Assembly: GCA_016869765.1 (NCBI GenBank) | Contig: VGES01000037.1 | Span: forward strand, 1-35,808 | Reading direction: 5' to 3' | DNA length: 35,808 nt | From: Alphaproteobacteria bacterium | Lineage (GTDB): Bacteria; Pseudomonadota; Alphaproteobacteria; SHVP01 | Part shown: one piece after another, positions 17,710-31,283 of the stretch | Position numbering within the stretch: position 1 is the stretch's first letter | Layout: each line of letters starts with the position of its first letter | Position numbers and translations under genes: made by a program | The notes under the pieces: generated by a model | Told to the model about the DNA's origin: nothing | The model's database searches: none | The model's input: the letters and a program-made list of their open reading frames with translations, nothing else

Positions 17710-17902
17710 CGATGGAAAAGACGCGTTCGGACAAGGGGCTATCAGTACCATATGTGGCGGAACGCTGCCAACGCACCACTACGTGGCGGCACTATTTGGC
17801 TTTCCCGCCAATTGCTTAGCCATTAGTTGTGACGATCGACGCCAGCCCGGTTCGATTGCGGGGCGCCGAACCACCAAGATATGCTGCGCCCAACACAACA
17901 TC

Positions 17903-17921
17903 TGGCCCCGGTTCGGGGCCA
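17903..17921 (+). promoter_or_regulatory. Hairpin in the leader of the binding-protein gene
   Basis: TGGCCCCG, three bases (GTT), then CGGGGCCA form a perfect 8-base stem. It ends 18 bases before the ATG at 17940 and 5 bases before the ribosome site GGGAGGG (17927-17933). It could stabilise the mRNA 5' end or slow ribosome access. The structure is certain; the role is inferred. Confidence 0.5.
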
Positions 17922-17939
17922 ATATCGGGAGGGACATCC

Positions 17940-19169
17940 ATGCACATGAAAACCTTTGGTCGCCGCTTAGCGCTGCTGTCGGCCAGCGCGATCACGTTCG
18001 CGCTCGCGAGCGGCGCCGTCCAGGCGCAACAAACCGTCAAGTTCGGCGCGCTCATGCCGATGACCGGGGCGCTCGCCCAGTTCGGGCCGACCTCGCTCAA
18101 CGGCATCAACCTCGCCATCAAACAGATCAACGCGCAGGGCGGAACTTCGCTCGGGCGCATCGAGGTCATCGTTTCGGACACGCAGACCAATCCGCAACAG
18201 GCCGTGCAGGCTGCCAAGCAACTCGTGTCCGTCAACAAGGTGTCGGTGCTGGTGGGGCCGCTCGCGAGTGGGGAAACGATTCCCGTCGGCACCAGCGTTG
18301 CCGCGGTCGACAACGTGCCGCTGGTGACCGGCTCGGCGACCTCACCCGCCCTGACCAGCCTGGCCGACAACGACTTCGTCTTCCGCACGACCCCGCACGA
18401 TGCAGTGCAAGGCATCGTGCTCGGCGACCTCGTCAAGGAACAGGGCCTCAAGAAGGTGGCCGTCATGTTCCGCAACGACGACTACGGCAAGGGCCTGTCG
18501 GCCGCTTTCGAGAAGCGCTTCAAGGAAATCGGCGGCGAGATCACCTCGATGATCGCCTTCGAGGAGAAGCAACCGAGCTATCGCGGCGAGTTGCAGCGGG
18601 CGAGTCAGGGTGGGCCCGAGGCGCTCGTGCACATCGCCTTCCCGGGCGAAGGCATTCCGCAACTCAAGGAAGCGCTTGAAGGCGGCTTCTTCAAGAAGTT
18701 CGTCTTCACCGACGGCATGAAATCCGACGACGTCGTGAAGGCGATCGGCGGGCAATTCCTGAACGGCATGGTTGGCACCGCCCCCGAAGCGGCGGCGAGC
18801 GATTCCAGCAAGGCGTTCAAGGACGCGTTCCAGCGCGAATACAACCGAGAACCGCGCGATCCGTTCGTCGACACGTTCTATGACGCGGCGTTCGTGCTCG
18901 CGTTGGCGATCGAAAAGGCCAAGTCGACGGACGGCAAGGCGATCCGCGACGCGTTGCGGTTCGTCGCCTCGGCGCCGGGCGAAAAAATCCTGCCGGGCGA
19001 ATGGGAGAAGGCCAAGAAGCTGCTGGCCGAGGGCAAGGACATCGACTACGTCGGCGCCGCCGGCAGCCAGGACTTCGACAAGGCGGGCGACGTCCCGGGT
19101 TCGTTCGGCATCTGGCGGGTCGAGGCCGGCGCGATCAAGACCGTGCGCATCGTCAACCAGTCGAACTAG
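17940..19169 (+). CDS. livJ: Branched-chain amino acid ABC transporter, periplasmic binding protein
   Basis: The 409-residue protein has a Sec signal peptide (RRLALLSASAITFALASGAVQA, about residues 6-26) and a type I periplasmic binding fold. Typical parts are VKFGALMPMTGALAQFGPT, GINLAIKQINAQGG, VIVSDTQTNPQQAVQAAKQL, VPLVTGSATSPALTSL, FRTTPHDAVQGIVLGDL and KVAVMFRNDDYGKGLS. The start at 17940 has a strong ribosome site. It is convergent to a livMHFG operon, so it very likely feeds that permease, though the true ligand could be another amino acid or an amide. A terminator follows. Confidence 0.92.
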   Translation: MHMKTFGRRLALLSASAITFALASGAVQAQQTVKFGALMPMTGALAQFGPTSLNGINLAIKQINAQGGTSLGRIEVIVSDTQTNPQQAVQAAKQLVSVNKVSVLVGPLASGETIPVGTSVAAVDNVPLVTGSATSPALTSLADNDFVFRTTPHDAVQGIVLGDLVKEQGLKKVAVMFRNDDYGKGLSAAFEKRFKEIGGEITSMIAFEEKQPSYRGELQRASQGGPEALVHIAFPGEGIPQLKEALEGGFFKKFVFTDGMKSDDVVKAIGGQFLNGMVGTAPEAAASDSSKAFKDAFQREYNREPRDPFVDTFYDAAFVLALAIEKAKSTDGKAIRDALRFVASAPGEKILPGEWEKAKKLLAEGKDIDYVGAAGSQDFDKAGDVPGSFGIWRVEAGAIKTVRIVNQSN

Positions 19170-19190
19170 AACAGCCTCAGGCGTTGATCG

Positions 19191-19218
19191 GGGCCCGCCT
19201 CACGGCGGGCCCTTTTTT
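19191..19218 (+). terminator. Rho-independent terminator after the binding-protein gene
   Basis: GGGCCCGCC, loop TCAC, GGCGGGCCC and six T residues form a textbook terminator 22 bases after the plus-strand stop. The T-run serves the plus strand only; it sits 8 bases from the stop of livM on the other strand. Confidence 0.93.
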
Positions 19219-19225
19219 CGTGCCC

Positions 19226-20140
19226 CTAGTCCGGACCCGGTCCGACGCGACGCGACTCGGGCAACAGTCCCTCGGGACGATAGAGCAGTACGACGATGAG
19301 CAGCACGCCCACGAGGACGACGCGGGCGGCGCTCGCCTGGGTGGCAAACTCGGGCGGCACCAGCGTGGCGACGAATCCCGTCACGGCGTAGAGACCCCAG
19401 ACCAGAAACGCGCCGACGAGCGCCCCGCGGTTGTTGCCGCTGCCCCCGGCGATCAGCATCACCCAGACGATGAACGTGCCGAACATCGGCTCGAAGGCCT
19501 CGGGGCCGACGAAGCCCTGGAAATGGGCATAGAGCGCACCGGCGAGTCCCATCAACGCGGAGCCGAAAACGAACGCCTCGAGTCGGAAGCGAACGACGTT
19601 CTTGCCGGCGGCCAGCGCCGCCTGCTCCTGTTCGCGCACCGCGCGCACCGTGCGTCCCCAGGGCGAACGGCGGGCGCGCTCGACCAACCAATAGGTGACC
19701 AGCACGGCCACCGCGACGATCACGAAGAACGTGACACTGGTGGGACGCGGGATCGCGGTGATTCCGCGCGTGCCGTTGGTCAGCCATTCCTCGTTCTTGA
19801 GCACGAGACGAACGATCTCGGCCAATCCGATCGAGGCAATCGCGAGATAGTCTTCGCGCAAGCGCAACGTGATGAGCCCGATCGCGAGCGCGAGCACCGC
19901 CGCGACGAGCATCGCCACAACGAAGCCCGCGATCATCGGCAGCCCGAAGCCACCGAGGTGGTTGGGCGACTCGGGCGTCGTCAGGATCGCCGCCGTGTAG
20001 GCGCCCACGGCGAAGAAGGCCGCGATGCCGATGTTGAACAGGCCGGTGTAGCCCCACTGCACGTTGAGGCCGAGCGCCAGGATCGCGTAAATCCCGGCAA
20101 ACGAGACGAAGAAAATGCCGAAGCCGAGGAGCGATTCCAT
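19226..20140 (-). CDS. livM: Branched-chain amino acid ABC transporter permease LivM
   Basis: The 304-residue inner-membrane protein has eight or more helices. Family marks are FAGIYAILALGLNVQWGYTG, LFNIGIAAFFAVGAYTAAIL, LREDYLAIASIGLAEIVRLV, and RSPWGRTVRAVREQEQAALA with the EAA-like loop for contact with the ATPases. It ends in RPEGLLPES, typical for LivM. Its ATG overlaps the livH stop by one base (TGATG), so the two are coupled. It is the last gene of the operon. Confidence 0.94.
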   Translation of the reverse strand: MESLLGFGIFFVSFAGIYAILALGLNVQWGYTGLFNIGIAAFFAVGAYTAAILTTPESPNHLGGFGLPMIAGFVVAMLVAAVLALAIGLITLRLREDYLAIASIGLAEIVRLVLKNEEWLTNGTRGITAIPRPTSVTFFVIVAVAVLVTYWLVERARRSPWGRTVRAVREQEQAALAAGKNVVRFRLEAFVFGSALMGLAGALYAHFQGFVGPEAFEPMFGTFIVWVMLIAGGSGNNRGALVGAFLVWGLYAVTGFVATLVPPEFATQASAARVVLVGVLLIVVLLYRPEGLLPESRRVGPGPD

Positions 20141-21000
20141 CAGCGCCGTGCCTCCGCGAAAATGCCCGTGGGCCGGATGAGGAGCACGGCGATCATCAGG
20201 ACGAAGGCGACGGCCGAGCGATAGACCGGCGGCAGGAACAGAGTCGACAACTCGCTCGCGAGGCCGATGACGAGCGCGCCGGCGATCGCCCCCATGGGCC
20301 GGCCGATGCCGCCCAGAATCGCCGCCGCGAAGAACCCGAGGAGCAAATCCCAGCCGAGGGTCGGCTGCAGGCGCGTGTCGAGCGCATGAAACACGCCGGC
20401 GGTGGCAGCGAGCGCGCCGCCGAGCACCCAGGTCCAGCGCACGACCGCATCGGTGTCGATGCCGGAGACGCGCGCGAGATCGGGATCATCGCTCATCGCC
20501 CGCATCGCCTTGCCGATCTTCGTCATGCGCAGGAACAGCGCGAGGCCCGAGATGAGCGCAATGCTCGCGACGATGATCACCAGTTGATCGATCTTGAGTC
20601 GCAAGCCGGCAAACTGCATCGGCAATTTGATGCCGGGCTCGTACACCAGGTTCTGTGGTCCCCAGATTCCGAGCACCAGATTGCGCAACACGAAGGCGAC
20701 ACCCACGGAGGCCAAGAACAGGATCACCGGACGCGTCCGCCGCAACCGGCGATAGACGACATGGTCGACGGCGATCGCCGCGCCGGCCGTCACCAGCACG
20801 GCGACTGGCAGGGCCAGCCATACCGAGACCTGGCCGAGCGTCACCACGGCGAGCGCCAGGTAGGCGCCCAACGTGACCATGTCGCCATGGGCGAAATGGG
20901 CGAAGCGGAGGATGCCGAAGATCAACGAGACGCCGACCGCGCCCAACGCAAAGATCGACGACAGGATCAATCCGTAGAGAATTGCCTGGACGATATCCAC
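20140..21000 (-). CDS. livH: Branched-chain amino acid ABC transporter permease LivH
   Basis: The 286-residue permease starts at the GTG at 21000 (VDIVQAILYGLILSSIFAL), one base after the stop of livF and with GGGGG upstream. Typical LivH segments are GVSLIFGILRFAHFAHGDMV, AVDHVVYRRLRRTRPVILFL, TKIGKAMRAMSDDPDLARVS as the ATPase-contact loop, and ILGGIGRPMGAIAGALVIGL. A longer frame reaching 21123 lies inside livF and is not real. Confidence 0.94.
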   Translation of the reverse strand: MDIVQAILYGLILSSIFALGAVGVSLIFGILRFAHFAHGDMVTLGAYLALAVVTLGQVSVWLALPVAVLVTAGAAIAVDHVVYRRLRRTRPVILFLASVGVAFVLRNLVLGIWGPQNLVYEPGIKLPMQFAGLRLKIDQLVIIVASIALISGLALFLRMTKIGKAMRAMSDDPDLARVSGIDTDAVVRWTWVLGGALAATAGVFHALDTRLQPTLGWDLLLGFFAAAILGGIGRPMGAIAGALVIGLASELSTLFLPPVYRSAVAFVLMIAVLLIRPTGIFAEARR

Positions 21001-21001
21001 G

Positions 21002-21706
21002 TCAGCCCCCGAGAAACATGGTGGCAACCTCGCGATCGGCCAGAAGCAATGCCCCGCTACCCTCGTGGCGGTTGCGGCCCATGACGAGAACGTAGCCGCG
21101 GGCCGCGATGCCGAGCGCCTCACGCGCGTTCTGTTCGACCAGCAGGACGCTCACGCCCGTGCGATTGATCGCTTGGATGCGCTCGAAGATCATTTCGCGG
21201 AACTTGGGCGACAGGCCGGCCGTCGGCTCGTCGAGCAACAGCAAGCGTGGCTGCAACATCAAGGCCCGGCCCATCGCGACCATCTGCCGTTGCCCGCCCG
21301 ACAGCGAACCGGCGGGTTGACGGCGCTTGTCCTTGAGCGGCGGAAACAGATCGAACACCGCCGCAAGCTCGCGGCCGAAATCGTCGCGGCGGAGGTAGGC
21401 ACCCATTTCGAGGTTTTCCTCGACCGTGAGCGAGGGGAAAACGTTCTTCTCCTGGGGCACGTAGCAGACGCGGCGGCGCGCCACGGCATCCGTGCGCGCC
21501 CCGGTGATGTCCTCGCCAGCGAACACGATCCGGCCGCCGCGAACGTTGACGAGGCCGGTCACCGCCTTCATGGCCGTCGACTTGCCCGCGCCGTTGGGCC
21601 CGATGACGACGACGATCTCGCCTTCACCGACGGTCAAGGACACGCCATTGAGGACGTCGACCTCGCCGTAACCGCCGCGCACGTCTTCGAGCGCGAGCAG
21701 GCTCAC
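21002..21706 (-). CDS. livF: Branched-chain amino acid ABC transporter ATPase LivF
   Basis: The 234-residue ATPase carries Walker A GPNGAGKSTAMKAV, Q-loop region CYVPQEKNVFPSLTV, signature LSGGQRQMVAMGRAL, Walker B LLLLDEPTAGLSP and the switch His region replaced by VLLVEQNAREAL, as is usual in LivF. It overlaps livG by four bases and would pair with LivG beneath LivHM. Confidence 0.95.
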   Translation of the reverse strand: MSLLALEDVRGGYGEVDVLNGVSLTVGEGEIVVVIGPNGAGKSTAMKAVTGLVNVRGGRIVFAGEDITGARTDAVARRRVCYVPQEKNVFPSLTVEENLEMGAYLRRDDFGRELAAVFDLFPPLKDKRRQPAGSLSGGQRQMVAMGRALMLQPRLLLLDEPTAGLSPKFREMIFERIQAINRTGVSVLLVEQNAREALGIAARGYVLVMGRNRHEGSGALLLADREVATMFLGG

Positions 21707-26755: not shown

Positions 26756-27967
26756 ATGAATTCGACCGCTGCCGCCCGTAAAGATGCCTCCGCCACCGTC
26801 GCCGAGTTCAAGTGGGACGACCCGTTCCTGCTCGACGATCAGTTGAGCGAAGACGAACGCATGATCCGGGACAGCGCCCGGGGTTACGCCCAGGACCGTC
26901 TGATGCCGCGGGTCCTCGAAGCCAACCGGCACGAGGTATTTCACCGCGAGATCATCACGGAGATGGGACAGCTCGGCCTCCTGGGCTTGACGCTCAAGGG
27001 GTACGGTTGTGCCGGCGTCAACTATGTCTCCTACGGTCTGGTGGCGCGCGAGATCGAGCGGATCGATTCGGGCTACCGCTCTGCCATGAGCGTGCAGTCG
27101 AGCCTGGTGATGTACCCAATCTATGCCTACGGCAGCGAAGCCCAGCGCCAAAAATACCTACCACGGCTGGCCAGGGGCGAGATCGTCGGGTGCTTCGGTT
27201 TGACCGAGCCCGACCACGGCTCGGACCCGGGCGGCATGGCGACCCGTGCCCGCAGCGTCAAAGGCGGTTACGCCCTCACCGGCGCCAAGATGTGGATCAC
27301 CAACTCGCCGATCGCCGATGTCTTCGTCGTGTGGGCGAAGAACGATCAAGGCCGCATCAACGGCTTCATCCTGGAAAAAGGCATGAAGGGCCTGTCGGCG
27401 CCCAAGATCGAAGGCAAGTTCAGCCTGCGCGCCTCGACGACGGGCGAGATCGTCATGGACGAGGTGTTCGTGCCAGAGGAGAACCGCCTGCCGAACGCCG
27501 AGGGACTATCAGGGCCCTTCGGCTGCCTCAACAACGCCCGGCTCGGCATCGCCTTCGGATCGCTCGGCGCCGCCGAGTTCTGCTGGCACGCCGCCCGCCA
27601 GTACACCATGGACCGCAAGCAGTTCGGCCGGCCGCTCGCCGCCAACCAGTTGATCCAGAAGAAACTCGCCGACATGCAGACCGAAATCGCGATCGGACTT
27701 CAGGCCTGTTTGCGGGTCGGACGACTGCGCGACGACGACAAGGCCACGCCCGAGATGATCTCGCTGATCAAACGCAACTCGTGTGGCAAATCGCTCGACA
27801 TCGCGCGGATGGCGCGCGACATGCACGGTGGCAACGGCGTTGCGGACGAGTTTCATGTCATCCGCCACGTGATGAACCTGGAAGCGGTCAACACCTACGA
27901 GGGCACGCACGACATCCACGCCCTCGTCCTCGGTCGCGCGATTACGGGAATTCAGGCCTTCCGCTGA
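26756..27967 (+). CDS. gcdH: Acyl-CoA dehydrogenase, glutaryl-CoA dehydrogenase type
   Basis: The 403-residue flavoprotein resembles glutaryl-CoA dehydrogenase, which oxidises and decarboxylates glutaryl-CoA to crotonyl-CoA in lysine and tryptophan breakdown. Domains in order: helical N-terminus ([20 protein letters not shown]), beta domain ([38 protein letters not shown]), and helical C-domain ([20 protein letters not shown]). The catalytic base is Glu382 in [18 protein letters not shown]. The SEPDHGSD-type flavin motif and the ending GIQAF are typical for GcdH. No glutaryl-CoA partner genes are in the window. Confidence 0.9.
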
Positions 27968-27978
27968 GCGCGACGGCG

Positions 27979-28590
27979 ATGTCCGCGCGTCTCGCCTACT
28001 TTCACATCCTGTTCTACCGCTATCGGGACGGAGAACCCGAGGTGACGGCACGGATGGAGACGTTCTTCCAGCGCTTCCGGCGCGAGGTGCCGGGCGTCAT
28101 CGACGCGCAGTACGGCCCCAATGTGTCCGCGTTCGCAGGCGAATACACCCACCTGCGACTGACCGCCTTCGAGAGCTACGCCGCACACATGGCCTATCAG
28201 GTCGCGCCACTCCATGACGAGATTGCGGCTTACGTATTGCCGCGAGCCAACGTCATTGTCGGCGATTGCCTGGGCGCGCTCGATGCCGGCGCGTTGCCGC
28301 GCTACTACCACGCGATCCTGATGTGTGCGAAGGCGCCACTCGGCCCCGATTTCTGGCCGCGCGTCGAGCGCCTGCGCATTCGGCTGCGCGAAGAGACCCC
28401 CGGCGCCGGCTTGTTCGAGATCGCGCCCAACCCCTCACCCCACGGCCTTCCGTGGACACACGTGCACTTGAGCGGTTTCGCGTCGCGCGAGGCGCACGAT
28501 GCGTATCAGCGCTCCGCGCTCCACGGCGAAATCGTCGATCTCATGGTGCCGATGATCGAGTCGCACGTCGGCGATCTCGAAGCCCGCTGA
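27979..28590 (+). CDS. Two-repeat Dabb/EthD-like alpha+beta barrel protein
   Basis: The 203-residue protein consists of two similar halves. The first begins YFHILFYRYRDGEPEVTARM and ends YQVAPLHDEIAAYVLPRANV. The second begins YYHAILMCAKAPLGPDFWPR and ends YQRSALHGEIVDLMVPMIES. This is the layout of the stress-responsive Dabb family, where single domains pair as a dimeric barrel; here both are on one chain. The start at 27979 follows the acyl-CoA dehydrogenase stop by 11 bases, so they are probably cotranscribed. I do not know the function; ligand binding or an oxygenase-like or decarboxylase-like role is possible. Confidence 0.75.
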   Translation: MSARLAYFHILFYRYRDGEPEVTARMETFFQRFRREVPGVIDAQYGPNVSAFAGEYTHLRLTAFESYAAHMAYQVAPLHDEIAAYVLPRANVIVGDCLGALDAGALPRYYHAILMCAKAPLGPDFWPRVERLRIRLREETPGAGLFEIAPNPSPHGLPWTHVHLSGFASREAHDAYQRSALHGEIVDLMVPMIESHVGDLEAR

Positions 28591-28591
28591 G

Positions 28592-28672
28592 CTATCGCGA
28601 CCCGCCGTAACGGATCTCGTCGCTCCAGAACCGCTCGAGCATCAGCAGCGCCTCGTTCATCGCCGTCAGGCG
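28592..28672 (-). pseudogene. Detached 3' end of the LdtR-like gene
   Basis: Past the TAA, the same frame encodes 26 residues ending in LERFWSDEIRYGGSR, the expected C-terminal helix of LdtR-like proteins. The final TAG lies one base from the stop of the converging Dabb-like gene, the usual packing for intact gene ends. This supports the longer frame being ancestral. No separate start for this segment is likely. Confidence 0.75.
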
Positions 28673-29074
28673 TTAGGTGGTTTCGGGACCACGGGCGAGC
28701 GTCGCGCATTGGGCCTCATGGAGCGCATCGATCTTCTGATAGAGCTCGAGGCCCTTTTCGGTCAGCCGGATCTGCACCGAGCGCCGGTCATGCGGCGAAC
28801 GTTCCTGCACCAGGTATCCGTTCTCCGACATCTTCTTGACGTTGTAGGAGACGTTGGAGCCGAGGTAGTACCCGCGCGTCGTCAACTCCCCGACTGTCAT
28901 CGTGTCGTTGCCGATGTTGTAGAGGATTAGCGCCTGGATGTTGTTGATGTCGGGAATACGCAGGCGATCGAGTTCGACCTTGACCACGTCGAGGAAACGG
29001 CGGTGAAGCCGCTCGATCAACTGCAACGACTGAAGATAGAGCCGTTTGAGCGCGGCTTGTTCGGACTCGGCCAT
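28673..29074 (-). CDS. MarR-family regulator, LdtR-like, cut short by an in-frame TAA
   Basis: The protein closely follows the LdtR group of MarR regulators, which in Rhizobiales-type bacteria controls an L,D-transpeptidase. Seen are LYLQSLQLIERLHRRFLDVV, DINNIQALILYNIGNDTM, VGELTTRGYYLGSNVSYNVK as the recognition helix region, and SPHDRRSVQIRLTEKGLELY. It ends after 133 residues at TAA (28673-28675). The same frame continues for 26 more codons to a TAG at 28592-28594 and encodes LTAMNEALLMLERFWSDEIR, which is the normal family C-terminus. So one nonsense codon removes the last dimerisation helix. I use ATG 29074; TTG 29098 is less likely. Confidence 0.88.
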   Translation of the reverse strand: MAESEQAALKRLYLQSLQLIERLHRRFLDVVKVELDRLRIPDINNIQALILYNIGNDTMTVGELTTRGYYLGSNVSYNVKKMSENGYLVQERSPHDRRSVQIRLTEKGLELYQKIDALHEAQCATLARGPETT

Positions 29075-29184
29075 GGCTGCGAATTGAGTGCGGCGCAAAC
29101 CTTAGCGTCACGGGCCTGCGCCGCAAAGCTTTTTTGGGCGACGCCGCGGCCCAAGCGGTATTATGCCGCTGAGCGAGATCAATC

Positions 29185-31283
<2,099 letters not shown>

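Follow-up and report, generated by a model that had tools for sequence, protein, structure and literature searches.

The LdtR-like regulator gene in the window, i.e. the whole analysed stretch of 35,808 nucleotides of contig VGES01000037.1 from an alphaproteobacterial genome assembly (GCA_016869765.1), carries an in-frame TAA codon near its 3′-end. This raises the question whether the regulator has been lost, whether the stop is read through, whether a shortened protein is still in use or whether the base is wrong. Comparison with relatives, structure prediction and published work on MarR proteins indicate that the locus is probably an ordinary LdtR-like MarR regulator gene with a very recent nonsense mutation, that is, a loss-of-function allele.

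Organization of the locus

The gene is located on the minus strand and runs from position 29074 or 29098 down to 28673. The features of the locus and of its surroundings are as follows:

26756..27967, plus strand: acyl-CoA dehydrogenase gene, a conserved neighbour by synteny with relatives
27979..28590, plus strand: convergent gene encoding two Dabb (stress-responsive A/B barrel) domains (Pfam PF07876), not at the equivalent position in relatives
28592..28594, minus strand: original TAG stop, a codon common to relatives
28595..28672, minus strand: remnant of the predicted C-terminal helix alpha6, 26 codons, RLTAMNEALLMLERFWSDEIRYGGSR
28673..28675, minus strand: premature TAA, aligned with a sense codon that varies (E/A/P/T/Q) among five family relatives
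28673..29074, minus strand: shortened ldtR-like MarR gene with ATG at 29074 and alternative TTG at 29098, covering helices alpha1 to alpha5 and the winged helix (NCBIfam NF047395, Pfam HTH_27 and MarR_2, AlphaFold)
29185..30075, plus strand: adenylate/guanylate cyclase-domain gene, divergent and upstream of ldtR
30093..31103, plus strand: hemB, ending with TAA exactly where the HemB of a relative ends

An initial annotation of this DNA had described a TAA at 28673 followed in the same frame by 26 sense codons, which was confirmed from the letters (28672-28595, then TAG at 28594-28592), as was the distance of one base between the old TAG and the converging plus-strand gene, whose TGA occupies 28588-28590. 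The interval given there for the regulator fits the remnant and the stop, but not the gene itself, whose minus-strand frame starts at 29074 or 29098. The TAA is codon 134 of about 160, so that the encoded product has 133 residues, and it lies just where helix alpha6 begins. The shared TAG position is used by four of the five family relatives; the frame of the fifth (G005) extends beyond it. Neither a terminator nor a promoter was found near the ends of the gene by consensus scan, the hits being no better than those in shuffled sequences.

Family assignment

The encoded product scored above the cut-offs of the Pfam models for the MarR winged helix, namely HTH_27 (52.8 bits, cut-off 22.2), MarR_2 (47.9 bits, cut-off 27) and MarR (25.8 bits, cut-off 24.6). 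The best NCBIfam model was LdtR (NF047395), which was matched by the encoded product with 171.6 bits over model positions 7-134 of 166 and by the read-through sequence with 197.3 bits over positions 10-164. Since these scores and those of the intact family relatives (202-208 bits) are all below the equivalog cut-off of 250 bits, the designation LdtR-like is right, and identity with LdtR itself is not shown. The read-through sequence shares with the LdtR of Candidatus Liberibacter asiaticus and Sinorhizobium meliloti the full-length MarR architecture and the coverage of the profile; in contrast to these, the gene in the window scores below the equivalog cut-off, is located away from ldtP and has lost alpha6. 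Due to the fact that the encoded product stops before alpha6, the complete MarR fold with its alpha1/alpha5/alpha6 dimerisation region is missing, and the gene is, according to the structural models, a truncated member of the MarR family by descent and not an intact one.

Conservation of the remnant in relatives

Five relatives of the same family (G001, G002, G003, G005 and G006) were compared with the copy in the window. Amino-acid identity to them was 67-77% before the stop and 62-77% across the 26 codons behind the TAA, and synonymous differences were present on both sides. Since the codons behind the stop are conserved to the same degree as those before it and likewise differ synonymously, the tail is not a chance match. 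The proposed agreement of the 26 codons with the conserved C-terminus was thereby borne out, LERFWSDEIRYG being unchanged across all family copies aligned. Within the lost segment, residues E147 and W150 hardly vary among 52 sequences.

No other truncated copy turned up in any of the searches. The copy in the window has 38 residues after the DRRS motif versus 61-109 in all 108 other fetched copies (97 distinct proteins). When 385 genomes of the class were scanned with the full-length query, stops were seen in four of the roughly 150 matches listed, one of them in the genome of the window; the other three (G389, G075 and G127) proved on inspection to be regular gene ends or stops ahead of the start, so that there was no second true premature stop among these matches. 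The genome contains one LdtR copy, and an intact duplicate elsewhere in it was rejected, the search giving only a distant MarR match (E 1.3e-4). The locus thus shows what defines a pseudogene, i.e. an in-frame stop, homologous coding sequence behind it and intact counterparts in relatives.

Predicted effect of the truncation on the protein

AlphaFold predicted the read-through protein with a mean pLDDT of 90.8, giving helices at residues 3-37, 45-54, 61-67, 75-84, 106-126 and 132-156 and a two-stranded wing. MarR structures can be superposed on the entire model, with Z up to 15.3 and 143 residues aligned at an rmsd of 4.4. In the model of the encoded 133-residue product everything is kept up to residue 128, followed by a low-confidence stub with a C-terminal pLDDT of 58. 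With alpha6 placed at residues 132-156 and the stop at codon 134, alpha6 is predicted to be lost. In solved MarR proteins, which attach to DNA in dimeric form, the dimer is built from alpha1, alpha5 and alpha6 (PMC3737563; PMC12893000), and the suggestion that the last, dimerisation helix is missing is therefore supported by the models together with the role of alpha6 in MarR dimers. For the same reason the shortened protein would most likely dimerise poorly, bind its operators weakly or be degraded.

Comparable alleles are known from Escherichia coli. As reported in PMC3514110, citing Notka 2002, a MarR that a nonsense codon shortens by 35 residues is regarded as non-functional, and a C-terminal deletion of 18 residues reduced binding. 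According to the same account, these naturally truncated E. coli alleles (marR109 and the C-terminal 18-residue deletion) likewise lose part of the dimerisation region. They arose in cells selected with solvents or drugs, and their effect is to lift repression, whereas the LdtR proteins studied are partly activators. By analogy with these alleles and from the structural models, the allele in the window is likely to be a null or near-null allele.

Age of the stop codon

All of the fifteen remnant codons that are invariant among relatives were unchanged in the copy of the window. The neutral branch was estimated at ~0.35 substitutions per site, half of the four-fold distance of 0.70 to G002, so that ~13 changes would be expected under neutrality over the 36 non-synonymous sites, and none was observed. 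This suggests that the nonsense mutation is very recent and has existed for no more than roughly a quarter of the branch, a rough bound obtained by splitting the distance evenly between the two branches under a simple substitution model. Before the stop no deviation was found at columns with at least 90% conservation, a pattern also expected of a gene that still works.

Ten private changes were observed upstream of the stop at columns where the other five family members all agree, and each of those five has 0-2 such changes. Faster evolution of the copy in the window was considered as well; the p-value of the relative-rate comparison ranged from 0.004 to 1.0 depending on the outgroup (~0.006 with L006/L007, lost with others), and the signal was therefore not relied on.

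Reliability of the sequence and alternative explanations

The interpretation as a nonsense allele holds only if the TAA has been read correctly. A single wrong base in the consensus, or a variant from a minority strain while the living population has an intact gene, would equally leave a remnant that keeps its frame and its conservation as far as the old TAG, would involve a single position, and could have arisen in an assembly of 164 contigs with an estimated contamination of 2.3%. In order to estimate the rate of interruptions, ~0.83 Mb of the genome of the window and 0.96 Mb of G006 were sampled. Among the 69 gene pairs compared, 22 of them on the contig of the window, an in-frame stop occurred only in the ldtR-like gene and frameshifts were absent; the single case with two frames was a tandem transporter pair. 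With no other interruption in these pairs the sequence is not error-rich, which makes a generally faulty contig unlikely and points to a low error rate. In addition, only 48 of the 1197 possible single-base changes upstream would create a stop, so a random error would seldom make one. An error at this position is accordingly regarded as unlikely, and the nonsense allele is favoured over it.

Readthrough of the TAA by suppression or recoding, yielding full-length protein at a low level, had also been suggested. The codons behind the TAA are indeed conserved as protein, but a recent mutation accounts for the same conservation. No relative has a stop at this position, the five family relatives having a sense codon there, so that no conserved signal is present. 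An alternative code or suppression was rejected, because hemB on the same contig ends normally at TAA and none of the 52 tRNA genes carries the anticodon UUA that would read UAA. No positive evidence for readthrough was thus obtained, and it is considered extremely improbable. A functional short protein, namely a naturally truncated MarR whose dimerisation is altered or which acts dominantly, would be in line with the retention of the winged-helix domain, alpha1 and most of alpha5 with their conserved residues, and the ten lineage-private changes at family-invariant columns, several of which fall in alpha5, could be compensatory. However, alpha6 is kept in 108 of 108 other copies, E147 and W150 are nearly invariant, no sign of selection for a short form was seen, and the old tail is undecayed, which makes the form too young for much refinement; such a function is quite doubtful. 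Still harder to credit is the idea that selection maintains a stable short protein, that its changed dimerisation has rewired the regulon, and that it became possible or fixed together with the appearance of the convergent Dabb gene at the 3′-end.

Taken as a recent nonsense allele or, less likely, as a one-base error, the locus looks like ordinary gene breakage or a sequence fault and not like a new mechanism. If the base is real, it captures the loss of a conserved regulator in one lineage at a stage before any decay. It also calls for caution in annotation, as automatic gene prediction would list a short MarR protein at this locus without any warning. Otherwise the case changes little, nonsense alleles of MarR regulators being well known.

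Regulon and probable dispensability of the regulator

The initial annotation had proposed that loss of the helix could release an L,D-transpeptidase regulon. The LdtR of Liberibacter and Sinorhizobium is an activator of its own gene and of the neighbouring ldtP (PMC3999280), and on the genome-wide scale it is a dual regulator with both activation and repression (PMC5481520). Because the studied LdtR activates ldtP, losing it should reduce ldtP expression, and the proposal finds no support as to its sign. Nor does it find support as to its target: the neighbours of the gene in the window are those for an acyl-CoA dehydrogenase, the Dabb protein, the cyclase and HemB and not ldtP, the single YkuD gene detected in the genome is on another contig, and no link between it and the regulator of the window was found.

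The S. meliloti ldtR and ldtP mutants form short cells and have no growth defect in liquid (PMC3999280), so that loss of the regulator is survivable. In genus g5 of the same family no LdtR match was obtained (G004, 98% complete; G007; G009), with G004 giving merely E 8.6e-4 in the class scan; the regulator seems to be lost in this whole genus of small genomes, and thus the loss would already have happened nearby. On these grounds the best reading is that loss of the LdtR-like regulator is tolerated and that the regulator is dispensable.

Neighbouring genes

The Dabb gene is present between the acyl-CoA dehydrogenase gene and ldtR solely in the window; in G003, G005 and G006 those two genes directly adjoin. 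Dabb homologs of the relatives are located elsewhere in their genomes and share 27-46% identity with it. Further along the contig, the block at 17829-21123, with a periplasmic-binding-protein gene and its neighbours, is inverted relative to G006. Two tandem MFS transporter genes (PF05977; 22790-24133 and 24118-25374, plus strand) both match one G006 gene with 48-49% identity, which suggests a local duplication in the window or a loss in G006.
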